Position numbers and translations under genes: made by a program. The notes under the pieces are model-generated. The model searched no databases, had not been told where the DNA came from, and worked only from the letters and a program-made list of their open reading frames with translations. From a virus, in the IMG/VR virus record IMGVR_UViG_3300044797_000308, positions 1 to 64,000 of that record: a stretch of DNA of 64,000 nt, one strand, 5' to 3'. This document shows, piece by piece, positions 3,569 to 58,760 of this stretch (its first letter is position 1; each line of letters starts with the position of its first letter).

Positions 3569-5455
3569 GTGTCCACTCTAAATATTGAAGATAAAGAACT
3601 GTTTTTGAAATTAAAGAAACAGTTGATGATGTATGATCCAGTCGCATTCTGCCAAGAATATTTAACATTGGAAGGAAAAGATTTTACTCTGATCGGCAAT
3701 GGATACAAACCGTTCAGTGATATTTATCGATACATTGGAATTAAAGCGTTGGAGAGAGATGCCAAACCCGTTATTATAGTCAAGGGTCGTCAGGTGGGAG
3801 CTACCACCATGGCTTCGGCTTTGGAAATGTATTTTATGGGATGTGGAATGTTTGGCGACGGTTTTAGATCGCCCATACGCATTATTCACGCCTTCCCACA
3901 ATTAGAACTAGCGGCAGCTTATTCTAAGACTAAACTCAATCAAATGATTTCTCAGGCTAAGATTCCTGATGGTAGCAAAGAGAGCAGGGGGGCTCGACCC
4001 AAATCTTATATGCAAATGCTATTGGATCAAAGTACGGCTACCAATGACTCCCTTCATTTTAAGCAGTTTCAAGGCGGAAACCATTTGTGGGTAGAGTCGA
4101 CTGGTATTGATGCTGACCGTATTATGGGTCGTACTGCTGATATTATCTTTTTTGATGAGGTACAGAAAACCACCGGTCTAGCCATTGGAAATGCTCTCAA
4201 AATTCTGACCAATGCTAAATACGGCCCCCCTACCAAAGGGGTCCAAATTTATTTTGGAACGCCTAGGCGCAAAGGTTCCGATTTTCATAAGATGTGGCAA
4301 ACATCTTCTCAGCAATACTACCACCTAGGTTGCGAAGGATGCAAAGAATATTTCCCGCTTTACACCCCCGATTCCAATGATTGGGAGTCAATTTGGATCC
4401 ATACTAAGATAGTTAAGTGCCCTAAGTGTGGTCATGAACAGGATAAATTATCCGCCCAAGAACGCGGCAAATGGGTCTCTCTGATCAATCCAGATGATCC
4501 AGATTGTAAGATGATTGGTTTCCATATCAATCAGCTTTATATGCCAATGTTTTCTCGTGAAGATTTAGAAAGTGAAAAACCGGGCAAGCACCCAATTAAT
4601 ACGGAAAGAGTTTATACCAACGAAGTTTTGGGAGAGTTTTTTCAAGGTGAATCTGGGCCAATCACTCCCGAACAAATTAGGGAACATTGTGCAGATATTG
4701 GAAGAAAGTTTGTACCAAGGATTATCCCCACTGCGGGGGTTAATCAGCAGCTTGTTGTATTGGGCATCGATTATGGTGCCCGTGCCGATCTAGAACAGCT
4801 GGCTAATCCCGATAGAATTAAGGCGCAAGGTCAATCTTACAGTACGGCCGTGGTTCTACAAACCAAGGGGGCTGGTGTTTTGTCAATTGAATTTTGTACC
4901 AAATTCAAGCGCAACGATCCAGAGAGTAAAAAGGGAATTATTGATCAATTGATGAGGCAATATAGCATACAGTTGGCAGTAGGAGATATTGGTTATTCTA
5001 ACGATTTTTCCTATACCCTTCATCAGTCTTATGGAGATAGATATTTAGTTTCTCGTGCACATAGTAAAATTAACGATCATATCAAGTTCAATGCTGATGC
5101 TTTCCCCAAAGAAATAACTTTTGAGAGGGATTATTATATTGGTGAGCTGTATGAGCAGATGAAAAAAGGGATGATTCGCTTTCCTTATGGGGAATATGAA
5201 AAAATTGCTTGGCTCATTGAACATTGTGCTAGTATGGAGATAAAACCATCTATTTCTAGAACAGGGGCCGATCCTAGCGTGCATTATGTCAAGGGCGGCA
5301 CCCCCAACGATGGTTTTATGGCTTTATTAAACGCTTATATTGCTTACAAGTTTCTTATTACCAGAGGCTTTACTAATAACAATCCGCTGCTACAAACCAC
5401 TAAAAATGCCAACAAACCCTTGGTGACATCTGGTTATTGTCCCAGAAAATTCTAA
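3569..5455 (+). CDS. terminase large subunit (DNA-packaging ATPase/nuclease)
   Basis: Motor protein that translocates phage DNA into proheads and cuts concatemers. The ATPase domain shows a Walker A-like GRQVGATT at residues 73-80 and a Walker B IIFFDEVQ with D196 and E197. Four cysteines (C255, C258, C284, C287) form a likely zinc ribbon between the ATPase and nuclease domains, as in GpA-type terminases. The nuclease domain shows candidate metal-binding aspartates: D401 in GIDYG, D473 in VGDIGYS and D581 in NDGFMALLNAY. At 628 residues the length suits the family. The start is uncertain: the frame opens at GTG 3569 without a good Shine-Dalgarno, and an internal Met (MMYDPVAF) near 3626 is an alternative. 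The portal gene follows. Confidence 0.95.
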   Translation: MSTLNIEDKELFLKLKKQLMMYDPVAFCQEYLTLEGKDFTLIGNGYKPFSDIYRYIGIKALERDAKPVIIVKGRQVGATTMASALEMYFMGCGMFGDGFRSPIRIIHAFPQLELAAAYSKTKLNQMISQAKIPDGSKESRGARPKSYMQMLLDQSTATNDSLHFKQFQGGNHLWVESTGIDADRIMGRTADIIFFDEVQKTTGLAIGNALKILTNAKYGPPTKGVQIYFGTPRRKGSDFHKMWQTSSQQYYHLGCEGCKEYFPLYTPDSNDWESIWIHTKIVKCPKCGHEQDKLSAQERGKWVSLINPDDPDCKMIGFHINQLYMPMFSREDLESEKPGKHPINTERVYTNEVLGEFFQGESGPITPEQIREHCADIGRKFVPRIIPTAGVNQQLVVLGIDYGARADLEQLANPDRIKAQGQSYSTAVVLQTKGAGVLSIEFCTKFKRNDPESKKGIIDQLMRQYSIQLAVGDIGYSNDFSYTLHQSYGDRYLVSRAHSKINDHIKFNADAFPKEITFERDYYIGELYEQMKKGMIRFPYGEYEKIAWLIEHCASMEIKPSISRTGADPSVHYVKGGTPNDGFMALLNAYIAYKFLITRGFTNNNPLLQTTKNANKPLVTSGYCPRKF

Positions 5456-9838: not shown

Positions 9839-10243
9839 ATGGTATCGGAACAACATCTTCTCAGCACTATCCAGCAGTTGCAAGGGTCCGGAAAAACCTT
9901 TGCCGAATTCTTAGCTGAAATCTTTAAAGATAAATTCATTGAGGTTTATGTGGGTGATGCTTACGAAGATGTTAGCACCGAACAAATATCAACTACATAC
10001 CCTGCTGTTTTTTGTGGAAAGGTCATAGCGGCCTATCGTGAATGTCTAATTCTTAACTGCGCGTTTGTGTCTCAAAATAAGCACTTGACGCTGGGTAATT
10101 ACATGTTCGTTAATGAAAGGGCTATCAGAGCTCTGAATGAAGTAGATGGCAATGGCACACTAGAAGATATGATGCTTCGTAGCAAAGAAACTTTGGATAT
10201 AAGACAAGCTTTTGATAAGAAACCCAATGATAAAAACAAATGA
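9839..10243 (+). CDS. hypothetical small protein
   Basis: 134 residues, preceded by an AAGGAAACACA ribosome-binding site. It is mixed alpha/beta in appearance. There are no transmembrane segments and no known motif. It ends in a lysine/asparagine-rich tail and overlaps the next gene by ATGA (10240-10243). Its place after the transglycosylase puts it in the head/internal-protein operon; a small connector or accessory protein is possible, but nothing in the sequence decides this. Confidence 0.6.
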   Translation: MVSEQHLLSTIQQLQGSGKTFAEFLAEIFKDKFIEVYVGDAYEDVSTEQISTTYPAVFCGKVIAAYRECLILNCAFVSQNKHLTLGNYMFVNERAIRALNEVDGNGTLEDMMLRSKETLDIRQAFDKKPNDKNK

Positions 10244-10458
10244 TCGACGTAAACGCTATCCTACAATTGGCTATCACTTATGAAAATAAGTGTTCACAAG
10301 AACTGGTAAAACTTGCTAAAATACGCAAGATGCCAGATGGCAGCTATCGTGTGCTTTCTCAGACGGGTAAAAATTTAGGAAGCTATAAGTCTCGTAAAGG
10401 GGCTGAGCGCCGATTGCGAATGATTGAAATGTTTAAACATATGAAAGAGAAAGAATGA
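10240..10458 (+). CDS. small basic protein with a GKxLGxY / RRLRxIEMFKH motif
   Basis: 72 residues. The C-terminal half contains MPDGSYRVLSQTGKNLGSYK followed by SRKGAERRLRMIEMFKHMKEKE. This is a compact beta-hairpin-plus-helix signature that I recognise as recurrent in small phage proteins but cannot assign a function to. The N-terminal half is a short helix. It overlaps both neighbours by ATGA: the preceding gene at 10240 and the endonuclease at 10455. Before that insertion, its stop would have overlapped the start of the gene now at 11198 in the same way. Confidence 0.65.
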   Translation: MIDVNAILQLAITYENKCSQELVKLAKIRKMPDGSYRVLSQTGKNLGSYKSRKGAERRLRMIEMFKHMKEKE

Positions 10459-11201
10459 TGTTTTATATTTATGCCATTCAAAATATGATAAATAATAAAA
10501 TATATATTGGTCAAACAAAGAATCCAGAATATAGGTGGTATTGTCATAAAAATAATTCTTTTAATGAAAAAACGGCTTGCTATAATACTTATATTGCCAG
10601 AGCCATTAGAAAGTATGGCGTTGATAGTTTTCAGTTTGATATTATTGAAAATTATGATAATATAAATGATTGTAATAATGCCGAAGAGTTTTGGATTAAA
10701 TTTCTCTTTTCACATAATTCTTCAATAGGATACAATATAAAATTGGGAGGAAACAATCATAGTATGAGCGAAGCAACTAAACAAAAGATTGGGGTGGCAA
10801 ATAGTATTTCTTTAAAGGGAAAAAAGCTAACTGATAAGCATAAGTATAACATATCATTATCTTTAAAAGGTAAAGATGTTTCACAAGAACATAGAGATAA
10901 TTTATCAGTGGTTTTGTTGGGTAATCAAAATTGTTTAGGTAGAGAGGTATCTCCAGAAACAAGAAATAAAATATCGGCTGCTAACAAAGGAAATAAAAGT
11001 GCTTTGGGAGTTAAGCATAATTTAAATACTAGAACTAATATGAGTCACTCTCGACTTGTCCTAAATGTTAGTGATGTTGAAAATATTATTAAAGATTTTG
11101 ATAGCGGTATAAAAAAGAAGGATTTAGCTATTAAATATGGAGTTAGTAAAGATACTATTACAAGAGTTTTTAATGCAACTTATTTTAGTAGGGTTAAATG
11201 A
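10455..11201 (+). CDS. GIY-YIG homing endonuclease
   Basis: 248 residues. The N-terminal GIY-YIG nuclease core is visible as FYIYAIQN..NKIYIGQTKNPEYRW, with YGVDSFQFDIIE after it. The middle has several NUMOD3-type repeats (SEATKQKIG, SLKGKKLTDKHKYNIS, PETRNKISAANKG). The C-terminus has a helix-turn-helix, KKDLAIKYGVSKDTITRV. This is the classic modular layout of free-standing phage GIY-YIG enzymes that spread by cutting endonuclease-free relatives. It is AT-rich compared with its neighbours. Both ends are ATGA overlaps (10455-10458 and 11198-11201), so removing 743 bp between the two ATGA copies would leave the flanking genes coupled exactly as other genes here are. Confidence 0.93.
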   Translation: MMFYIYAIQNMINNKIYIGQTKNPEYRWYCHKNNSFNEKTACYNTYIARAIRKYGVDSFQFDIIENYDNINDCNNAEEFWIKFLFSHNSSIGYNIKLGGNNHSMSEATKQKIGVANSISLKGKKLTDKHKYNISLSLKGKDVSQEHRDNLSVVLLGNQNCLGREVSPETRNKISAANKGNKSALGVKHNLNTRTNMSHSRLVLNVSDVENIIKDFDSGIKKKDLAIKYGVSKDTITRVFNATYFSRVK

Positions 11202-11842
11202 ATAATGATTATTTATTGGATAAAATATCTCAATATGAAATGGAGTGCCTTAAAATAGTGGCTAAAAAAAGAGTCTCTAAAAAACAATATATGAAGCACT
11301 TCGATCATTCTAAAGTGGAAGACGGCTCCCCAATTATTGATTTAACGGATATTGATGAGTTCGCTTATTCCGCTATTATGCGCAAGATTCGTCAAAAGGG
11401 TACTCCTGAGCAAGTTAAGCAATTTTTAGCCATTTACAAACAACAGTTTGATAAGGCGGTCAAGGGCAAACTACATAAGCCAGAAAAGATAGCTTTACAA
11501 AATACGATGGTTAGATTTAATAAACTTCATAAAGTGAAACTTGATACCAAAATGATTAAGTGTGCAGCTGTGGCGGAATTAGGCAATGCTCAGTTGGTTG
11601 GTAAATATTTATCAGATATTGTTAAATTTACCTTGCAACGATTGCCTGCGGATAAGCAGCAACACGCTCTAGACAATTTGAAGAAAAAGTTTGCCGTGAT
11701 GAGTGAGGGGGAAATAGCTTCCAAACAGCTACCGGAATCTTCTGCTTTGGGACAGGCTATCACCTTCGTTAAGCATGTGTTATTTAATCACGATGCTGCA
11801 TATGTACGAGAAGTGCTCAATAGCTTAGTCAGGAGCCTCTAA
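11198..11842 (+). CDS. hypothetical protein
   Basis: 214 residues, start overlapping the endonuclease stop (ATGA). Helical, basic N-terminal half and a C-terminal half of short helices; no membrane segment or catalytic motif. Its N-terminus (helix ending in LKIVAKKRVSKK) resembles the start of the small protein at 10240 (ELVKLAKIRK), so the two may share a short leader helix. It couples to the phosphatase gene by TAATG at 11840-11844. Function unknown. Confidence 0.6.
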   Translation: MNNDYLLDKISQYEMECLKIVAKKRVSKKQYMKHFDHSKVEDGSPIIDLTDIDEFAYSAIMRKIRQKGTPEQVKQFLAIYKQQFDKAVKGKLHKPEKIALQNTMVRFNKLHKVKLDTKMIKCAAVAELGNAQLVGKYLSDIVKFTLQRLPADKQQHALDNLKKKFAVMSEGEIASKQLPESSALGQAITFVKHVLFNHDAAYVREVLNSLVRSL

Positions 11843-18174: not shown

Positions 18175-18971
18175 TCACTAAAAAGATGTTTGAAGACGAG
18201 ATTATTTCAGGCATGCAAGGAGAATTGCGTAAGCAAGCTTCGGATGACACCCCGAATCTTGTCAAGGCCGCCGACTGCCTACATGCCGCTTTGGAAATTT
18301 TCGAAGAGGTGGGGTTGGCATCTAGAGCCGATGATGTACTCAAACTATTACAAAAGATTGCCCAGCACCACACTACTAAATCCAAGCCAGCCGTTCAAAT
18401 GCCATCCATCAATAAATTGATGGAGCTAGGAATGACTCAACGTGATTTGATGGAATTTTCTAAGGGCAATCCCATCGCTAAGGCTAAGTTCAATTTGATT
18501 TTGCGTGGGATGGGATATTCAGAACATCAAATCGGTAAACTTCTAGGCCCCGCTAACGTTATGTCGGAACAAGATGCCAGACTTATATCAGACCCTAATC
18601 GTAGCATTAGTAAAATGTGGGAATGGATGAAAGATCCTGAAATGCCTATCGATCCTAATAAAGTCAAGCCAGGAGAATCTATTAAGTTCAAGAGTATTGC
18701 GGATGATAGGCATACCAGAGGACTTACCTCCGAGAAACAGGTGCAAAACCTAAAAAATCATGGAACACAATTTAATCTAGCTGATATTAATCAATCTAAT
18801 AAATTGAACAAGTCAGAAGTAGATCCAGAATTAGCTGATTTGTTAGACGCCGATTCCTTCGATATCAATGCTTCCGATGATGAGTTATTTGGTATGGATA
18901 TCAAAGACGACTCCCTAGAAGTGTTTGATCAAGAAGAAACTTTGTCCGATTTTGAAGACGAACGAAGCTAA
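18171..18971 (+). CDS. hypothetical protein with duplicated helical N-terminal unit
   Basis: 266 residues, ATGA-coupled to its smaller paralogue. Residues 1-70 repeat the helical unit of the previous gene. Residues 80-190 include a basic segment (LMELGMTQRDLMEFSKGNPIA). The C-terminus is acidic (Asp/Glu-rich). There is no membrane segment. Its last codons meet the stop of the convergent endonuclease gene (4-base overlap at 18968-18971). It probably belongs to the head module, based on context only. Confidence 0.6.
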   Translation: MITKKMFEDEIISGMQGELRKQASDDTPNLVKAADCLHAALEIFEEVGLASRADDVLKLLQKIAQHHTTKSKPAVQMPSINKLMELGMTQRDLMEFSKGNPIAKAKFNLILRGMGYSEHQIGKLLGPANVMSEQDARLISDPNRSISKMWEWMKDPEMPIDPNKVKPGESIKFKSIADDRHTRGLTSEKQVQNLKNHGTQFNLADINQSNKLNKSEVDPELADLLDADSFDINASDDELFGMDIKDDSLEVFDQEETLSDFEDERS

Positions 18972-19789
18972 TTGCTTTTCAGAAACTCTTGATATTTTTC
19001 GTATTTACGTGGCAAATAGATTGTAGCGTCTTGATATAGCCAGTCGAGGACTTTACGCACTTGCAGATTGCCACCGACCGATAAGGTTGTGGTAATTTTG
19101 TTCGTTTGAGGGCGTGATAATGATTGTGAACAGTTGATATCTAATTCTTTTTTCAGTATCTTAGCAGTTTGTTCGCAGAATTGTTTGGTAGAGACGAACT
19201 TCCAAATCGTATTGATCGTCTTTTTATTCTTGAAGTGATTTTGATAAATTGTCCCGTCACCATCACTATACCCACGCAGGAAGTGGCGCACAAGTTCCAT
19301 AGGAATTGCCGTAGGAAATTGTAGGATGAGGGATTTGTTGGGAACGCAGCCCAAAGCGATTAGTTGGTCGCATACTTCTTTGCGATTGACGCGAAAATAG
19401 GAGTAGGTATTTGGGGAGCCTTTGTTTTGTGCCATTTTGATGGGAGATGATGGCGACATGATGTCTCGAAATTTTTCCAGGATGCACTGATCGTTGGATT
19501 TGAGTTTGATAGTCATTGCATAGGCATTATTTTGCACGTTACCATCTGCATATAGGAAGCCTAAAAAGTAGGCATTAGCCTCGCAATTTATCTCTTTGAA
19601 AAAAATGGTATTGACATCTGTGTAGGTGATCTTCTTGCCTACTCGTGTTTCAATATCGTTTCTTCTCAGCATACCAGAAACTGTTGTTTGCCTACAATTT
19701 AGTGTTTGAGCTATTTCACGTTGTTGTTTCCCCGCGTTATATAGATCGATAGCTAACTTTATGTCTTGGGGAGTGAATATTTTTCGCAT
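18968..19789 (-). CDS. LAGLIDADG homing endonuclease
   Basis: 273 residues on the minus strand, opposite to its neighbours. An N-terminal helix-turn-helix (KQQREIAQTLNCRQTTVSGML) is followed by two LAGLIDADG motifs: YFLGFLYADGN near residue 80 and HFLRGYSDGDG near residue 175. Two motifs in one chain imply a monomeric enzyme. It is free-standing: no intein splice blocks and no interrupted host gene. The stop overlaps the stop of the + strand gene by 4 bases. TATATATC lies 8 bases upstream of its start (19797-19804) and similar sequences precede two other minus-strand endonucleases. Confidence 0.93.
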   Translation of the reverse strand: MRKIFTPQDIKLAIDLYNAGKQQREIAQTLNCRQTTVSGMLRRNDIETRVGKKITYTDVNTIFFKEINCEANAYFLGFLYADGNVQNNAYAMTIKLKSNDQCILEKFRDIMSPSSPIKMAQNKGSPNTYSYFRVNRKEVCDQLIALGCVPNKSLILQFPTAIPMELVRHFLRGYSDGDGTIYQNHFKNKKTINTIWKFVSTKQFCEQTAKILKKELDINCSQSLSRPQTNKITTTLSVGGNLQVRKVLDWLYQDATIYLPRKYEKYQEFLKSN

Positions 19790-33802: not shown

Positions 33803-34438
33803 ATGGGAATGAAATTTTGTAAAAAATGCGGGATAATAAAGGACATAACAGAATTTTATAGAAGCTCGAAAAAACGTGATGGACATGCTTCTGCCTGCAA
33901 AAAATGTCAAAATGCGGTAAATAAAGCGTATAAAATAAAGAATGAAGAAAAAATTATGACTTATCAAGAAAATTATAGAAAAGAACATAAGGAAAAGATG
34001 AGTTCTTATTTTAAAGAGCGCTACGAGGCAACGAGAGACGAACAATTGGAATATAGAAAACAGCATTATGCTAGCAACAAAGAGCAATATGCTAAATCGG
34101 CTAAAAATTATTATATCAGTAATAAAGAGACAATACTAAATAGTGTTAAAGCGTGGGCCAAAATAATAAAAAATAAAAGAAATGAGTATAAGAGACGTAG
34201 AAGGGCGTTAAAACGTAATTCTATTGTTGAAAATTTTTCATTAGAAGAGGTGTTTAATAAATATGGTAATCAATGTTTTTATTGTAAGATGAAAAATTTT
34301 GAGCACCTAGATCATTTTGTTCCATTATCTAAGGGTGGCGCCCACACATTGGAAAATGTCAGGCCGTCGTGTGCAGAGTGTAATATGAAAAAACATACAC
34401 TTATGCCAGATGAGTTTTATTTAAGATACGGAAAGTAA
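33803..34438 (+). CDS. HNH homing endonuclease
   Basis: 211 residues. An N-terminal zinc knuckle (CKKCGIIKDITEFY, then CKKCQN) is followed by a long Lys/Tyr/Asn-rich helical linker and a C-terminal HNH core: CFYCK, HLDHFVPLSKGG, TLENVRPSCAECN. Architecture is shared with the genes at the left edge and at 48255, though the HNH core is of a different subtype (CxxC pairs flanking the active site). AT-rich. Its stop is only 3 bases before the next ATG. Start could also be ATG 33809. Self-mobile element; cleavage site unknown. Confidence 0.9.
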   Translation: MGMKFCKKCGIIKDITEFYRSSKKRDGHASACKKCQNAVNKAYKIKNEEKIMTYQENYRKEHKEKMSSYFKERYEATRDEQLEYRKQHYASNKEQYAKSAKNYYISNKETILNSVKAWAKIIKNKRNEYKRRRRALKRNSIVENFSLEEVFNKYGNQCFYCKMKNFEHLDHFVPLSKGGAHTLENVRPSCAECNMKKHTLMPDEFYLRYGK

Positions 34439-45878: not shown

Positions 45879-46622
45879 ATGCTTGGCAAAATTTATTTAA
45901 TTACAAACCTTGTTGACGGTAAGAAATACGTGGGACAGACCGTTAAACCCATAGAAAAAAGGTTAAAAGAGCATTTTAAGGCTGCGTTCGTAGAGAACAG
46001 ACGTGCCATTATTTGTAGCGCTATCAGAAAGTACGGTAAAGACAGTTTTAGTATCGAATGCCTGCAAGATAATATATCTATTGATAATTTAGATGCGGCA
46101 GAGCAATATTGGATTAAGTATTGTGATACCTTCGGAAAGAACGGTTATAACGCCACAACGGGTGGTAACCAATGTCGTATTTCAGACGAAACTAAGCTGA
46201 AGATATCAATTGCTCTTATGGGACATCCTGTTTCAGAAGAATCACGAAAAAAAATGTCAGAGTCACAAAAAGGAAAAGTTGGGGCATTAAATTCTTTCTA
46301 TGGACGAACTCATTCGGAGGAGACGATAGCACAGATTAAAAAGACACTAACTGGTAAAATGTCCGGTGAGAAGAATCCATTTTACGGCAAACATCACTCC
46401 AAGGAGTCAAAGAAAAAATTGAGTGAAAGTCTCAAAGGCAAGAATATTGGAGTAAAAGCAGGCATCAAACATCATAATGCAAGACTTATAGAGTCAGAAG
46501 TTCTAGAAATTAGAAAACTGGCTTTAGAAGGATACTTACATTTAGAGTTAGCAAAAATGTTTAGGGTTGCACGACAAACTATCACTAAGATAGTTAATAG
46601 ACGTATTTGGAGACATATATGA
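45879..46622 (+). CDS. GIY-YIG homing endonuclease
   Basis: 247 residues. N-terminal GIY-YIG core: GKIYLITNLVDGKKYVGQTV, RAIICSAIRKYGKDSFSIE. NUMOD3-type repeats follow (DETKLKISIALMGHPVSEES, SEETIAQIKKTLTGK, SKESKKKLSESLKGK), then a helix-turn-helix, HLELAKMFRVARQTITKIV. The stop overlaps the next ATG (ATGA 46619-46622). TTCTGATATATTGAG about 40 bases upstream resembles other + strand leaders and may have served the downstream lipase gene before insertion. Confidence 0.93.
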   Translation: MLGKIYLITNLVDGKKYVGQTVKPIEKRLKEHFKAAFVENRRAIICSAIRKYGKDSFSIECLQDNISIDNLDAAEQYWIKYCDTFGKNGYNATTGGNQCRISDETKLKISIALMGHPVSEESRKKMSESQKGKVGALNSFYGRTHSEETIAQIKKTLTGKMSGEKNPFYGKHHSKESKKKLSESLKGKNIGVKAGIKHHNARLIESEVLEIRKLALEGYLHLELAKMFRVARQTITKIVNRRIWRHI

Positions 46623-48244: not shown

Positions 48245-48254
48245 AGTAAGTAAT

Positions 48255-48962
48255 ATGAAATTATGTAAGAAATGTTATATTGAGAAAAATGAAAACGAAT
48301 TTTGTAAGTGTAAAAGAATGATTGATGGACTATATTGTTATTGCAAGGCATGCGAATCGATAAACAAGAAAGAATACTATCAACAAAATAAAGCAAAATT
48401 AATTGTAAACGCTCAAAATAATTATCGTAAAAATAAAGATCGTAAGAAGGCGTACGATAAAAAGAGATATCAGAAAAATATCGAAAAACATCAAGAAAGT
48501 AGCAGATTATACTACCAAAAGAATAAGCGGATTTATGCTGATAGAAATCGTAAAAATTCAGCAGAAAAATATAAAAATAATCCAGTTTTCAAGATAAGAA
48601 ACAGAGTATCCTGCGAAATAAAAAGGGCATTAAAGAAAAATAATTCATCCAAAAACGGACACTCAGTTCTCGACTTCATTCCATATTCTATACGAGATTT
48701 AAAAGTTTATTTGGAAAATCAGTTTGAGCCGTGGATGACTTGGAATAATTGGGGGAAATATGACCCAAAAATATGGAATGACAACGATCAATCAACTTGG
48801 ACATGGCAAATTGATCATATAATACCACAGAGCAAATTACCATATACTACAATGACCGACAATAATTTTCAGATATGTTGGGCATTAAGTAATCTGCGAC
48901 CATTAAGTGCTAAACAAAATTTGCTTGATGGAGTATATAGAAAGAGACATATCAATGAGTGA
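48255..48962 (+). CDS. HNH homing endonuclease (paralogue of left-edge gene)
   Basis: 235 residues. N-terminal zinc knuckle pairs (CKKCYIEKNENEFCKCK and CKACES), Lys/Tyr/Asn-rich linker with KNIEKHQESSRLYYQKNK-type repeats, then an HNH core with WQIDHIIPQSKLPY and CWALSNLRPL. It is clearly paralogous to the truncated gene at 3-656 (also sharing a PYSIRDLKVYLENQF-like segment). Very AT-rich. The next gene's ATG lies inside its last codons (48955). Confidence 0.92.
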   Translation: MKLCKKCYIEKNENEFCKCKRMIDGLYCYCKACESINKKEYYQQNKAKLIVNAQNNYRKNKDRKKAYDKKRYQKNIEKHQESSRLYYQKNKRIYADRNRKNSAEKYKNNPVFKIRNRVSCEIKRALKKNNSSKNGHSVLDFIPYSIRDLKVYLENQFEPWMTWNNWGKYDPKIWNDNDQSTWTWQIDHIIPQSKLPYTTMTDNNFQICWALSNLRPLSAKQNLLDGVYRKRHINE

Positions 48963-49200
48963 AGATAATGTTAAAATAACATATTACGGAGAGGTAGTCT
49001 GGTTTGATCCCAAAAGAGGTTATGGCTTCATTTTTTGGGAGATAGATGGCGTCAAACAAAAAGATCTTTTTGTCCATTTTTCTGACGTTTCCTGTGAGGG
49101 TTTTAAGACACTTTATAAGGGTCAAAAAGTAAAATTTGGTCTAGGTATCAATAAGCATGGTGACCCCAAAGCCACCAGTGTTGAAATCATGAAGAACTAA
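48955..49200 (+). CDS. cold-shock domain (CspA-like) nucleic-acid-binding protein
   Basis: 81 residues. Cold-shock fold signatures: GEVVWFDPKRGYGFIFW (RNP1-type) and DLFVHFSDVSCEG (RNP2-type), then QKVKFGLGINKHGDPKATSV. Such proteins bind single-stranded RNA/DNA and melt structure. The ATG at 48955 overlaps the HNH gene by 8 bases, so it depends on that gene's translation or was captured beside it. Its stop abuts the stop of the convergent minus-strand gene. Could modulate phage or host mRNAs. Confidence 0.9.
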   Translation: MSEDNVKITYYGEVVWFDPKRGYGFIFWEIDGVKQKDLFVHFSDVSCEGFKTLYKGQKVKFGLGINKHGDPKATSVEIMKN

Positions 49201-50152: not shown

Positions 50153-50713
50153 ATGACATACTGCTTTAATTATACTCCTGGCCAACTAGTTACTTTCTAT
50201 CAGGAAGTTAAGGACGGCTATGATCAGCGCACGGATGACGGATATATCCCAGTCGTAACCAGAATTATTGTTCCTGGTTTCACTTTGGCTTGCGATTACC
50301 CGCGAACCATGACTCGCATAGATGTAGGTCTGTTTTACTTCCAATTTTTGCTTCCTAATGGGGCTTCCGCAGTGGGAACTTATTTTGTAGATATTATTTA
50401 TATGAATCCAGATACGGGACTATTGGTCAATGCGTCTCGTCAGATTGTGGTAACGGCACCTTTCGGTAATTTTGGCTTGACTCCGGGCGGTTTGGGCGGC
50501 CCGCCAATTCATCCGCCACCACCTTGCCATTTCCCTCCAGAACCAGATTGCCATCATGATCACCATGAGCGTCCCGATCCTTACGATCGTCATGAACATC
50601 ATGATCCGTGTCCGCCCCCTTGTCCCGCGCCATATCCTCATGAACCGCTGCCTCTTGGTCCCCGTGGTTTCGTTAGAAATCCACATCGTCCTTTCCGAGG
50701 CGGTGGAAGATAA
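50153..50713 (+). CDS. virion protein with His/Pro-rich C-terminal tail
   Basis: 186 residues from ATG 50153, chosen for its AGAGGAACA site; the frame also opens at 50021 in opposition to the divergent gene. Residues 1-115 are a beta sandwich with an Ig-like look (RTMTRIDVGLFYFQFLLPNG), similar in style to the protein at 51567. Residues 116-186 are Pro-, His- and Cys-rich (CHFPPEPDCHHDHHERPD and more), a potential metal-binding tail. The last 41 bases are shared with the convergent endonuclease gene. Confidence 0.6.
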   Translation: MTYCFNYTPGQLVTFYQEVKDGYDQRTDDGYIPVVTRIIVPGFTLACDYPRTMTRIDVGLFYFQFLLPNGASAVGTYFVDIIYMNPDTGLLVNASRQIVVTAPFGNFGLTPGGLGGPPIHPPPPCHFPPEPDCHHDHHERPDPYDRHEHHDPCPPPCPAPYPHEPLPLGPRGFVRNPHRPFRGGGR

Positions 50714-51524
50714 ATTTTTCTCTTTTCCTGTCCAACCATATGGTGGCATCTTTATATAAAAAATCATATATTTTTTTAACTACTTTATTGCCACTATACG
50801 ACAGTGAAAAAACATTATTTTTTACCACCGTTTTATTATAATGTAGCTGACAATTTTTTATTAAAATATTGCGATATTCTTCAACAAAATTTTGTGTTCC
50901 CAGTATATTAAAATGTAATTGTTTAATTGTTCTTCCCGCACTGAGTCCACAATAAGAAATCGAACCATCCCCATCAAAATATCCCCTCATAAAATGGTGC
51001 ACTAATGGATGATTGACTAACCACCCTGGCATCATGTATGTGAAAGTTTTATTTGGAACGATGTTAAATCGTTCCAAATCATCATAAATTTTATCACTTA
51101 CTATTTGTATTTCTACGCACTTATGTGGTGTTTTTATTAGTTTACCTGGTTTGATATTATATTTTTTAATAGGATGATTGCTATTAAAAGATATTTTTAT
51201 TTTTTCTAAATGTGCTAAATCTACGTTTGATAAACATATTTTTAATATTTTTGAGTATTGTCGTTTTTGCAATGAGCCATCAGCGGCAATAAAACCAGCT
51301 AAATAAAAACTTTCAGCATTATCACTATCAAAAATGTTTTCGTTGCACTCATAAATTCCAGTAAAATGTTTGTCATATGATAGTCCATATAATTTCATAT
51401 ATTTGTAAACACTATCAATAGATACGGACAATTTATTTGCAATTTTTTGCATACTACCGAGCGTTTTGTATTCATATTCCAGTATTTCTTTGGTTAGTTT
51501 GTTTTGTAGACGATTTTTGTTCAT
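50673..51524 (-). CDS. LAGLIDADG homing endonuclease
   Basis: 283 residues, minus strand. N-terminal helix-turn-helix-like region (MQKIANKLSVSIDSVYKYM), then LAGLIDADG motifs FYLAGFIAADGS (near residue 72) and HHFMRGYFDGDGS (near residue 180), C-terminal YKDATIWLDRKREKF. Two motifs imply a monomer. AT-rich. The C-terminus overlaps the + strand virion gene by 41 bases, the largest such overlap here. TATATATC lies 7 bases upstream of its start (51531-51538). Confidence 0.93.
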   Translation of the reverse strand: MNKNRLQNKLTKEILEYEYKTLGSMQKIANKLSVSIDSVYKYMKLYGLSYDKHFTGIYECNENIFDSDNAESFYLAGFIAADGSLQKRQYSKILKICLSNVDLAHLEKIKISFNSNHPIKKYNIKPGKLIKTPHKCVEIQIVSDKIYDDLERFNIVPNKTFTYMMPGWLVNHPLVHHFMRGYFDGDGSISYCGLSAGRTIKQLHFNILGTQNFVEEYRNILIKNCQLHYNKTVVKNNVFSLSYSGNKVVKKIYDFLYKDATIWLDRKREKFIFHRLGKDDVDF

Positions 51525-51566
51525 ATCTACTATATATCACGATAGCAATATATTTGGAGACGATAC

Positions 51567-52466
51567 ATGGTTATTAAAGCCAGGGGCGAGCTTATTGAAC
51601 CGACCGAACAGGTTAGGTTAACTGTAAAATTTAAGGATGCCATGGGCCATCCCATCGACACGGATGCCTTTCCTACAATTTCTATAGTTCAGCCGAGTGG
51701 TTTAGTGGCGCTCGTCCAGTCCTCTTCGGGCGTACATCAATTATCGGTTGGAGAGTATGAGTATACTTTCACTGCTCCTATCAATGGCCCGCTTGGTGTA
51801 TGGAACGATATTTGGACAGGTTATATTAATGGATTTTTAGTGCAAACTACTTTTAGTTTTGTGATAATACATACACAAATACCAGCTATCAATAGTGATG
51901 ATAAAATTCATTTAGGTGATGATCCTGGTTTTCATTATTCTGAGTGTGCCCTGCATAACATCAATAAGCTAATGAAGTCTCTCAAAGCCAGGCTTAATAG
52001 CTCGGGTAAAGCCAAATCCTCGGATGCTTACGGCAACACTATTTATGTGGATTGCGATATTTTTTCTGTGGATACCCTAGCCACTTTTATTGCCACTGCC
52101 CTGTGGGACTTCAACCAAGTTCCTTATTTCACTTGGTTTACTTTTGACGAAGACAGCTTCGTAGATCAATTCGGAGAGGTATTGGTAGAAGGTGCTACTT
52201 TATATGCACTAGCTTCTATTGCCTTGATTGAAAGAGGAAGAGAATTTCAACTAACTGATAATGGGTTAAATTTCAATCCTCCGACTGTTAGTGAATTGCT
52301 ACAAACTCAATATAGCACTTTGTTAAGTCACTATTGGGAAAAGCTTAAATACATTAAGAATTCACTCAGACCAAGTCCACGCGGTCTTGGAGTATTCTCA
52401 ATGACAAGTGGTATGAACCCACAGTGGGCACGTTTACGCCACGTCCGTGCTCGTAGATTGTACTGA
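51567..52466 (+). CDS. virion protein with N-terminal Ig-like domain
   Basis: 299 residues. Residues 1-105 form an apparent Ig-like beta sandwich (QVRLTVKFKDAMGHPI, VGEYEYTFTAPINGP, GVWNDIWTGYINGF). The rest is helical (ALHNINKLMKSLKARLNSS), ending in a basic segment (RPSPRGLGVFSMTSG..RARRLY). I recognise this type from tail or neck proteins of large phages but cannot name it. ATG follows TTGGAGACGATAC. Followed by a hairpin and another endonuclease gene. Confidence 0.6.
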   Translation: MVIKARGELIEPTEQVRLTVKFKDAMGHPIDTDAFPTISIVQPSGLVALVQSSSGVHQLSVGEYEYTFTAPINGPLGVWNDIWTGYINGFLVQTTFSFVIIHTQIPAINSDDKIHLGDDPGFHYSECALHNINKLMKSLKARLNSSGKAKSSDAYGNTIYVDCDIFSVDTLATFIATALWDFNQVPYFTWFTFDEDSFVDQFGEVLVEGATLYALASIALIERGREFQLTDNGLNFNPPTVSELLQTQYSTLLSHYWEKLKYIKNSLRPSPRGLGVFSMTSGMNPQWARLRHVRARRLY

Positions 52467-52518: not shown

Positions 52519-53535
52519 ATGAAAAACAAGCTACTCTCAAAAATTACGCCCGAACAACTCATTCAAGATTTTCAAGAATTAGGTTCAGCAGGTAAAATTG
52601 GTGCTAAATATGGTATCAATACGCAAACTGTTTATACGGCCTTCAAGATTATAAATTATGATTGTCGTACCAGGCAAGATGTTGCATCGGTGGTGACCAA
52701 AGAAATTCTAGAAGAAGCTTACGGCCGTCTTGGCACGCTCAAAGCAGTTGGTCGCGAACTAAAAATAGACCCCGAAAGCGTTAGTCGCTATATGGAAAAA
52801 TTTGACCTTAATTATCAGCATCAAATTATCTATAATTGTGATCAAGAATTCTTTTCAAGAGATAATGAAGAGACATTTTATGTGGCTGGTTTCATTGCTG
52901 CCGATGGTTGTGTGAAAAATAGAAAAAATACCTCTGGAAATATAAGATATGAACTTGGAATTGGATTATCAAGAGAAGATAAGGATTTTCTTGAACAACT
53001 TCGACAGATAATGAAAGCTGAAACTCCTGTTAGAGATTTTTTGGTTAAAAACTCAAAACGTAATCCAAAATGGAATGATTGTTGGAAAAGTGAAATCATT
53101 ATCACCTCCAAGCAAATGTGTGATGATCTATTTCGTTTCGATGTGATCCCGCGCAAAAGCCTTATTTATACGTTTCCTAAATGGATGAAAACGCATCCTC
53201 TCAAACATCATTTTCTCCGTGGGTATAATGACGGAGATGGCAGTTTTTTCATTCCCGAATTACCCGATGGAAAAAAGACCGAACAAGTCCATTTTTCTAT
53301 GCGTGGAACACCCAGTTTTCTCACAGATGCTCGATATATATTGGAACAAGAATGCGATCTCGAAGAACGAGAAAAGGATATTAGAATTTCCAGCGGACAA
53401 GGCGTTCTCGAATATGGTGGAAACGGCGTTACATCCAAAATTGCTGATTACCTCTACCGAGACGCCACCATTTATCTTCCGCGCAAACGAGAGATTGCAA
53501 TGATGGCAAAACAATTTCAGGGACTATTGAAATGA
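52519..53535 (+). CDS. LAGLIDADG homing endonuclease
   Basis: 338 residues, the longest of the four. The N-terminal 100 residues hold two helix-turn-helix-like units (AGKIGAKYGINTQTVYTAF and LKAVGRELKIDPESVSRYM), then LAGLIDADG motifs FYVAGFIAADGC and HHFLRGYNDGDGS, and C-terminal YRDATIYLPRKRE. Closely related in layout to those at 50673 and 54907. Its stop overlaps the next ATG (ATGA 53532-53535). Confidence 0.94.
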   Translation: MKNKLLSKITPEQLIQDFQELGSAGKIGAKYGINTQTVYTAFKIINYDCRTRQDVASVVTKEILEEAYGRLGTLKAVGRELKIDPESVSRYMEKFDLNYQHQIIYNCDQEFFSRDNEETFYVAGFIAADGCVKNRKNTSGNIRYELGIGLSREDKDFLEQLRQIMKAETPVRDFLVKNSKRNPKWNDCWKSEIIITSKQMCDDLFRFDVIPRKSLIYTFPKWMKTHPLKHHFLRGYNDGDGSFFIPELPDGKKTEQVHFSMRGTPSFLTDARYILEQECDLEEREKDIRISSGQGVLEYGGNGVTSKIADYLYRDATIYLPRKREIAMMAKQFQGLLK

Positions 53536-54362: not shown

Positions 54363-54929
54363 ATGGGTTCCAGTGACAAAGAGAAAATTCCACTTTCTCA
54401 AGTAAAAAAACTACCTTACAAGTCCTTGAACAGGATGATCAAAAAGATGCGCGAGTATCTCAAACACAATGAGACCGTCCAAAATATGTTCAAGGAGTAT
54501 GAAGTGGATATTTCAGAAATAGACTTTATTCCTATGATGTTTGGCAACCTAGATGTGTCTGCTAAAACGGACCACGCAATAATTATATTCAGCTATAAAT
54601 TATTATGTGATGGTGATTTTTTTAAAGATTTTTCTTATGGGGTCCATGAGATAAATCACTGGCTCCAACAAACGACCGGCAAAGAGGCAACTAAAAGTTC
54701 CGATGATGGTGAATATCTTGAAAATCCATTCGAACAAGAGGCATTTACACATCAAGTAGAATATATTAGCGATCAATTCGGCAAGGATGAGGCGGAAAAA
54801 TATGTAGATGATCTTCTTGAACACCACGATGTAGATGATAAAAAAGAAATCGAAGAAAAAAAAGAACTTTTCATGTCCAAGGCTAAAAATATTAAATCTT
54901 TATTGATCAAGTATCAATCAAATATTTGA
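54363..54929 (+). CDS. HExxH zinc metallopeptidase-like protein
   Basis: 188 residues. H95-E-I-N-H99 in YGVHEINHWLQQ fits the HExxH zinc-binding helix, and ENPFEQEAF (E124/E126) downstream fits the third ligand of gluzincin-type enzymes. Residues 1-70 are basic and helical. No signal peptide, so it would act inside the cell or virion. The frame is complete; its end overlaps the convergent endonuclease gene by 23 bases. It is the sort of small minimal protease found in phages, but activity is unproven. Confidence 0.65.
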   Translation: MGSSDKEKIPLSQVKKLPYKSLNRMIKKMREYLKHNETVQNMFKEYEVDISEIDFIPMMFGNLDVSAKTDHAIIIFSYKLLCDGDFFKDFSYGVHEINHWLQQTTGKEATKSSDDGEYLENPFEQEAFTHQVEYISDQFGKDEAEKYVDDLLEHHDVDDKKEIEEKKELFMSKAKNIKSLLIKYQSNI

Positions 54930-55755
54930 TTAAATCATATTTTCGATCTAAATACGTATTTGTAGTGTGATTTTTGTAAAGCCAATGAATTAATAATACG
55001 GCTTCTTTACCATTATATTCTAGATCATAAATTGTCCTATTTTTGAATGGGATATGTAATGATATATCGCAATTTTGATTGATAATTTGCCCAATTCTTG
55101 TTAGACACGAAAGTGTACCATAAAAATTAATTCGGAGATATTCTTTTTTAAATGATATGCTTCCGTCACCATCTAAATACCCCCTGATAAAATCACTAAT
55201 ATATGGACTATTGGTTATAGTTTCTGGAAAAGTATATATTAGTGATTTTGCCGGAATAATGTTGAAAGTAGTTAATGAATTAACCAAATATTTGGAGTGA
55301 AACACAATGACGCTATCTAAACTATCTTTCCAAATTTTTCCGCACCTAATACCACCCTTATTTATTTCTTGTTTAATTTTGGCATCCGATGATAGGCATG
55401 TTCGAAGTTTTATTAGATGATTTTCATCACCTCTCTCTAATCTAACAGTTAAAAAATAACTTCTTGAACTGGATTTGTTCATCACATTACCGTCTGCTGC
55501 AATAAATCCCGCCCAATATAATATTTCGGAAGCATAGGTGGGATTATTATATCGGTCAAAATATTGTTCATCGAGTTTTACTTTTCGTGTAGGTTTGTGA
55601 GAGATCTGATTATCATCAGGAATACGAATTACTTGTCTTGTGGTAATACTATATTTTTGTGATATTTTCTCGATTGATAGCGGCGCCAGATAGTCACGAA
55701 CAATATTGTCCTGAAAATCCTGGCTGTATATTTTTTTTATCCATTTTTGTCCCAT
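54907..55755 (-). CDS. LAGLIDADG homing endonuclease
   Basis: 282 residues from ATG 55755 (MGQKWIKKIYSQDFQ); an upstream TTG at 55794 would lie in the promoter itself. N-terminal helix-turn-helix (LSIEKISQKYSITTRQVIRI), LAGLIDADG motifs LYWAGFIAADGN and DFIRGYLDGDGS, and C-terminal NTYLDRKYDLIKYLID. The C-terminal end overlaps the metallopeptidase-like gene. It is the only endonuclease here with a perfect consensus host-type promoter, which would place the start of transcription within about 5 bases of its start codon. Confidence 0.93.
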   Translation of the reverse strand: MGQKWIKKIYSQDFQDNIVRDYLAPLSIEKISQKYSITTRQVIRIPDDNQISHKPTRKVKLDEQYFDRYNNPTYASEILYWAGFIAADGNVMNKSSSRSYFLTVRLERGDENHLIKLRTCLSSDAKIKQEINKGGIRCGKIWKDSLDSVIVFHSKYLVNSLTTFNIIPAKSLIYTFPETITNSPYISDFIRGYLDGDGSISFKKEYLRINFYGTLSCLTRIGQIINQNCDISLHIPFKNRTIYDLEYNGKEAVLLIHWLYKNHTTNTYLDRKYDLIKYLIDT

Positions 55756-55765
55756 GATACCTAAA

Positions 55766-55794
55766 ATTATAGTCACGATCGCGCCTGATGTCAA
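55766..55794 (-). promoter_or_regulatory. perfect consensus sigma-70 promoter for the LAGLIDADG gene
   Basis: On the minus strand TTGACA (55794-55789), a 17-base spacer, and TATAAT (55771-55766). Both hexamers and the spacing are the bacterial housekeeping optimum. Expected transcription start is near 55759, only a few bases before ATG 55755, so the transcript would be almost leaderless. No other exact match to both boxes was noticed at the gene starts I checked by eye. Confidence 0.75.
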
Positions 55795-57839: not shown

Positions 57840-58760
57840 ATGACCTTTTATCTATACAAGATAGCTAACATTAAAAATAATAAAGTTTATATTGGTAAAA
57901 CAGTTGATTTTGTTCGTCGTTGGAACTCTCATAAAAATTTGGCAGCAAGTGATGCTAGGCATTTCTACATACATAATGCTATTAATAAATATGGTATAGA
58001 TAATTTTATTTTTGAAATAATTTCAGAACATATCGATGAAAATGAGGCGTATGAAGAAGAAGTGTTGCTAATTGCAAAATATAAATCAAATAATGCTAAA
58101 TTTGGATATAATTTGACTATCGGTGGTAAAGGGGTTTTGACCGATAAGCCAGTTTCTTTGGAAACCAGGAAAAAGATATCTGAAGCACAAATAGGTATCA
58201 AGAGAAGAAAATCTTTTGAGGTAACAGAGTTTACGAGACAAAAATTAAGTGCAACAATCAAGTATCGTGGCAATTTATCCGTTGAAAAGAAAAAAGAAAT
58301 TTTAGAGTTATTTGATAGCGGAAATTATACCAAAAAACAATTAGCGGAGATGTTTAATATTAGATTCGAGACGGTAAGAAATGTAATTATTTATTACAAA
58401 AAAAATGGGTTCAAATCAAATGAGGAAAAACGAAAAAATAGATCAAAAGCAAAAATTGGACGGACCCTTTCAAAAGAGACGAAAAATAAAATATCAGAGG
58501 CTCTTAAGGGGACGGTATTTACTGAAGAAAGAAAAAATAATATATCTAACTCTCTTATTGGAAAAGTGCCTTCTACTGAAACTAGGGAAAAAATAGCAGC
58601 AAGCATATCTGGTAAAAACAATTATTTGGAGATAAAAAAGAATATTATTGAATTATTTGAAACTGGTAATTATAGCAAAATTGAATTAGCTAAAAAATTT
58701 GAGCTCAACAGAAAAACTGTTGAAAAGATAATAAAAAGACATAATGATGGAAACACATGA
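57840..58760 (+). CDS. GIY-YIG homing endonuclease with two helix-turn-helix units
   Basis: 306 residues. N-terminal GIY-YIG core: FYLYKIANIKNNKVYIGKTV, FVRRWNSHKN, YGIDNFIFEII. NUMOD3-type repeats follow (SLETRKKISEAQIG, SKETKNKISEALKGT, SNSLIGKVPSTETREKIAAS). Two related helix-turn-helix units: YTKKQLAEMFNIRFETVRNV and YSKIELAKKFELNRKTVEKI. AT-rich. The stop overlaps the next ATG (ATGA at 58757-58760). Confidence 0.93.
   Translation: MTFYLYKIANIKNNKVYIGKTVDFVRRWNSHKNLAASDARHFYIHNAINKYGIDNFIFEIISEHIDENEAYEEEVLLIAKYKSNNAKFGYNLTIGGKGVLTDKPVSLETRKKISEAQIGIKRRKSFEVTEFTRQKLSATIKYRGNLSVEKKKEILELFDSGNYTKKQLAEMFNIRFETVRNVIIYYKKNGFKSNEEKRKNRSKAKIGRTLSKETKNKISEALKGTVFTEERKNNISNSLIGKVPSTETREKIAASISGKNNYLEIKKNIIELFETGNYSKIELAKKFELNRKTVEKIIKRHNDGNT

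Follow-up and report, generated by a model that had tools for sequence, protein, structure and literature searches.

The window analysed here is a 64,000-nucleotide stretch of viral DNA (positions 1 to 64,000 of IMG/VR record IMGVR_UViG_3300044797_000308), in which a GIY-YIG homing endonuclease gene (HEG) directly abuts an open reading frame (ORF) on either side. A first-pass annotation had drawn attention to an ATGA word at each end of this gene, and both words are indeed there, with the ORF overlaps that it described and with no intergenic space belonging to the HEG itself. The features of the locus are collected in Table 1, together with comparisons to a near-identical relative that carries the gene intact (L001) and to a diverged lineage that carries the same insertion (L002 and L177).

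Table 1. Features of the split gene, its endonuclease insertion and the other homing-type genes of the window.
Feature	Positions	Strand	Evidence or comparison
N-terminal fragment of the split gene, 72 aa	10240-10458	+	matches residues ~1-68 of the intact L001 gene and other relatives
Content of the N-terminal fragment: N-terminal helix and beta-beta-beta-alpha domain	10240-10458	+	RVLS..GKNLG...AE.RL...E.FKH
Left arm: diverged copy of the target segment (GAERRLRMIEMFKHM), then KEKE and stop	10399-10458	+	22/45 nt as in L001
First ATGA: stop of the N-terminal fragment overlaps a possible HEG start	10455-10458	+	sequence; TAATG in L002 and L177
GIY-YIG HEG, 247 aa	10458-11201	+	I-TevI-like catalytic domain, NUMOD3 motif, C-terminal HTH
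Second ATGA: HEG stop overlaps start of the C-terminal fragment	11198-11201	+	same in L002
Right arm: new start and N-terminus (MNNDYLLDKISQYEMECLKIV), then second diverged copy of the target segment (AKKRVSKKQYMKHF)	11198-11302	+	common to L002 (MNNIILINKISKYEIMCLSKKRYSKKEYFKHF)
C-terminal fragment, 214 aa: helical domain beneath the new N-terminus	11198-11842	+	98% aa identical to the intact L001 protein past the junction
Co-conversion-like tract (arms excluded)	11303-11351	+	37/48 nt as in L001, then 462/483 farther right
Further homing-type endonuclease genes	18968-19789, 33803-34438, 45879-46622, 50673-51524, 52519-53535, 54907-55794, 57840-58760		Pfam

The encoded endonuclease matches the GIY-YIG (PF01541, 1.7e-10) and NUMOD3 (PF07460, 2.3e-11) families of Pfam above the cut-off, its C-terminus gives HTH-type Pfam matches below the cut-off, and the protein also matches the homing endonuclease family PHROG 314 (2.8e-37). 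It can be aligned to the I-TevI structures 1mk0 and 1ln0, and has Arg and Glu in the columns of the mutated catalytic residues. The GC content of the gene is 27%, versus 41% for the window. On these matches the gene is very likely a free-standing, seg-like GIY-YIG HEG, and its mobility, which the first-pass annotation had suggested, is very likely as well. In-frame stop codons at the locus exclude an intein.

Occupied and empty alleles

A search with the downstream gene recovered 33 related IMG/VR loci, and a wider search yielded 67. In the set of 33, one ORF runs across the site in all but one of the loci in which the site is complete, and, apart from a few relatives in which the small domain is missing, this ORF contains what had been supposed to be a small upstream protein. 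Among the 67 loci, 65 have a single uninterrupted ORF of approximately 200-250 aa, one is cut by a contig end (L165), and one is split (L123, the same contig as L002). The intact, empty allele is observed directly in L001, which shares 98.3% identity with the window along the 5.9 kb that end at 10407 on the left and 95.6% along the 2.2 kb that begin at 11286 on the right. Here the site reads GAEKRLKQVEYFKHFDHS, and the gene is one ORF without ATGA whose product has about 247 aa. Because relatives have a single ORF and the near-identical L001 is intact, the HEG lies inside one gene, and on this comparison the intact form is ancestral. Taken by sequence alone, the pair formed by the window and L001 would fit a gain in the window as well as a loss in L001. 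Among annotated phages, blastn with the region and tblastn with the C-terminal half gave no match.

The same insertion, with the same arms and an orthologous HEG, is present in L002, which comes from another sample. A second independent assembly, from a third sample and 99.99% identical to L002 (L177), confirms the left half. The two HEGs share 70% aa identity (dN/dS 0.16), and the longest run of identity between the window and L002 in the region is 28 nt, within the left arm (10418-10445). These are the only two occupied lineages known, and a near-identical empty partner is lacking for L002. The locus therefore offers an occupied allele, a near-identical empty allele and a diverged second occupied allele for an intron-less HEG within coding sequence.

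The small RVLS..GKNLG domain is naturally missing from nine loci (L154, L160, L161, L162, L163, L164, L167, L168 and L169), in which an N-terminal segment is joined straight to the C domain in an arrangement that resembles the right-hand ORF. Since some relatives naturally do without it, this domain seems to be modular.

Domains and selection in the split protein

We consider it likely, with a probability of roughly 0.8, that the HEG sits inside a single phage gene at the linker between two domains, and that the gene is thereby expressed as two separately translated halves whose function is kept. For the intact protein of L001, AlphaFold2 predicts (pLDDT 75, pTM 0.38) an N-terminal helix (residues 4-20), then a unit of three strands and one helix (27-68), and finally a helical C domain, which is connected through a presumably flexible linker of low confidence (66-76). 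The insertion point coincides in this model with the end of the small-domain helix and the low-confidence linker, and the N-terminal fragment modelled alone keeps the whole small domain (mean pLDDT 83). No function was assigned to the split protein by Pfam or PHROGs; the PHROG families that match it are uncharacterized, and in the members inspected closely the matches lie over the small domain. Foldseek searches of the PDB with the models of the intact protein and the N-terminal fragment returned nothing with E < 0.001, the best being a weak match to HVO_2922. The gene belongs to a cluster that also contains portal, transglycosylase-like and phosphatase-like genes.

Both halves are open frames with their own start and stop, in the window and in L002. 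Between the C-terminal part and its counterpart in L001, 29 changes are synonymous and 3 are non-synonymous (dN/dS 0.024); 11 and 2 of these, respectively, are assigned to the window branch. For the N-terminal part the counts are 5 and 2, and its dN/dS is noisy. Because of this purifying selection and because the split falls at a domain edge, both halves are probably functional proteins. If the window gained its insertion very recently, however, the conservation relative to L001 may mostly be older than the split.

Alternatively, the split might have destroyed the gene, leaving one or both halves to decay and being tolerated because the function is dispensable. The noisy dN/dS of the N-terminal half leaves room for such decay, and the natural absence of the small domain from several relatives suggests that this half may be dispensable. 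Nevertheless, a dead gene is unlikely because the halves are conserved: both have remained open in two diverged lineages, between which the N-terminal halves are 68% identical in amino acid sequence, the C-terminal half has the low dN/dS given above, and each half stops at a domain edge.

Arms and junctions

Each arm contains codons for the target segment (KRLxxxExFKH), in diverged form. The left copy agrees with L001 at 22 of 45 nt, compared with 98.3% identity farther left, and the right copy agrees at 25 of 42 nt. In the window, the left half ends GAERRLRMIEMFKHM-KEKE-stop and the right half starts MNNDYLLDKISQYEMECLKIV-AKKRVSKKQYMKHFDHS. The right arm, which supplies the C-terminal half with a new start and N-terminus, is absent from the intact L001 allele and weakly resembles the N-terminus of the intact gene. 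When this resemblance was scored with one profile, the result was 1 in 5000 shuffles for the window and 275 in 5000 for L002; with a larger profile it was 29 in 10000 for both, and a few unrelated ORF starts score equally high. These scores are only suggestive of the right-arm N-terminus being a copy of the gene's own. Divergence between the window and L001 is concentrated in 10399-11351, which comprises the arms and about 50 nt more. A short diverged tract in near-identical DNA is the expected trace of copying from an occupied donor, and we infer homing with co-conversion.

If the HEG does divide a single gene in this way, the enzyme would cleave the intact allele at, or close to, the conserved coding segment AEKRLKQVEYFKH; with an occupied genome as the template for repair, the HEG would then be copied in together with its arms and some flank. 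The left arm would equip the N-terminal half with a stop and with a copy of the segment that ends the helix, and the right arm would give the C-terminal half a coupled start (ATGA) and a new N-terminal segment. Because the arms would carry what each half needs, both domains would stay intact, and they would probably act in trans. More tentatively, and less likely than not, the HEG could be regarded as a mobile cassette with tailored coding ends, each arrival of which turns one protein into two working ones. Such a cassette would bring a C-terminal cap and stop for the first half, and for the second a coupled start and a helix imitating the N-terminus of the target.

GIY-YIG genes are often carried by group I introns, as is the case for I-TevI. 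It is thus conceivable that the HEG resides in a self-splicing intron or another excised element of about 859 nt (10441-11299), the removal of which would restore the full protein, and joining 10440 to 11300 does produce an uninterrupted protein like that of the intact relatives. This is quite improbable given the structure of the locus. The HEG itself leaves only about 115 nt of this length, and a group I core would not fit there without overlapping the ORF. In both lineages the right arm can be read from its own ATG straight through to the C domain, and the two versions differ in length by 9 nt, which preserves the frame. Moreover, Rfam searches around the HEG at gathering and relaxed thresholds gave no match to a group I catalytic core or to any other group I or group II intron, and we set the intron aside for want of Rfam support.

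The start common to the HEG and its L002 orthologue is the ATG at 10458, which has a 1-nt overlap with the preceding stop (TGATG in the window, TAATG in L002), so that translation of the HEG probably does not begin at the left ATGA. A start overlapping the upstream stop is known for T4 mobE, where UAAUGA is very like the left junction here (PMC2988022). The right ATGA belongs to the element, since L002 has it too. Hence the proposal of the first-pass annotation that the HEG brings its own junction holds on the right, but the left ATGA is not conserved. That annotation also took the flanking ORFs for two coupled genes and the insertion for one that leaves the operon unbroken, with clean borders and a single ATGA at the empty site. 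They are instead halves of one gene that L001 carries intact through the insertion point; the empty site has a different junction, one ORF with no ATGA, and the borders of the occupied site hold a duplicated target segment and new coding ends. A different junction in empty sites and duplications at the borders were the very findings that the annotation had named as counting against its model. A seamless insertion at the boundary of two genes that were already separate and coupled by ATGA, despite the ATGA at both ends and its retention on the right in L002, is ruled out by L001 and the other intact relatives, as no relative has two genes without the HEG, 65 of 67 loci have one ORF, the left ATGA varies, and the predicted joined junction (AAAGAATGAATAATG) was found in 0 of the 179 loci searched.

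Removal of any gene with ATGA overlaps at both ends leaves one ATGA, and the deletion arithmetic is therefore no evidence of insertion. ATGA occurs about 6.6 times per kb in the window, and 4-nt overlaps are ordinary there, accounting for 8 of the 42 junctions between adjacent genes of the same strand in a list compiled by hand. Of the five HEGs on the plus strand that are closely followed by another gene, four overlap it at their end by a 4-nt ATGA (at 11198, 46619, 53532 and 58757), versus 4 of 37 other junctions (Fisher p 0.003, post hoc).

Known parallels and other homing genes in the window

Phage genes split by HEGs are already known from a few cases, and the present locus is a further one. 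In Aeromonas phage Aeh1, mobE lies in nrdA and separates nrdA-a from nrdA-b (Friedrich et al. 2007; PMC2988022, PMC3653736; also cited in PMC10448857), so that, as here, a free-standing HEG divides one coding region into two ORFs. In Aeh1, function was measured and is kept by assembly of the two polypeptides; mobE is of the HNH type and nrdA encodes a known enzyme, whereas the gene described here is GIY-YIG and the cut falls between domains. This comparison is by description; the Aeh1 junctions were not found in two stretches examined. In Aeromonas phage 25, a seg-type (GIY-YIG) gene, seg43, likewise lies between the halves of a split gene, 43A and 43B of the DNA polymerase gene 43, and these halves co-purify and are active (PMC2988022). 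However, gene 43 of phage 44RR is split without an HEG, which makes the role of seg43 in creating the split unclear (PMC2988022); the HEG-free form is split there, whereas the HEG-free allele here is intact. The T4 mobA HEG and the split topoisomerase gene 60 (PMC2988022) also combine HEG insertion with gene fission, although the enzyme there is of the HNH type and the host gene is another one. I-TevI, the endonuclease of the phage T4 td intron (PDB 1mk0, 1ln0), shares the GIY-YIG domain, the Arg and Glu residues and the C-terminal HTH, but is intron-encoded, whereas our HEG is free-standing and has no intron signal.

The present case combines a GIY-YIG enzyme, an occupied and an intact allele in phages that are nearly identical, and coding ends that are, unusually, duplicated or replaced. 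With a split at a domain edge and new ends derived from the element, tolerated gene splitting by a homing gene becomes directly testable. The locus also holds a caution for annotators, since neighboring 'hypothetical genes' that flank an HEG may be the halves of one gene.

At least seven further homing-type endonuclease genes are recognized by Pfam in the window, from the LAGLIDADG, HNH and GIY-YIG families (Table 1), and another, at 48255-48962, is HNH-like by eye without a Pfam match. A 97% identical relative (L173) lacks 48245-49000 and 50711-51603 of the window, which hold the HEG at 48255-48962 and most of that at 50673-51524, and it thus provides two further candidate empty sites. In another relative (L174, ~3940-4002), apparently only the last dozen codons of an HEG corresponding to that at 45879-46622 are present just upstream of a patatin-like gene (NKVVNKRYWKHI then ATGA), as if the HEG had been lost and its end kept as the start region of its neighbor. 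Finally, a short HNH-like ORF at 372-656 (weak GmrSD_C match) overlaps the next ORF (653-1489) by 4 nt (GTGA), and this pair could be another split or inserted gene.
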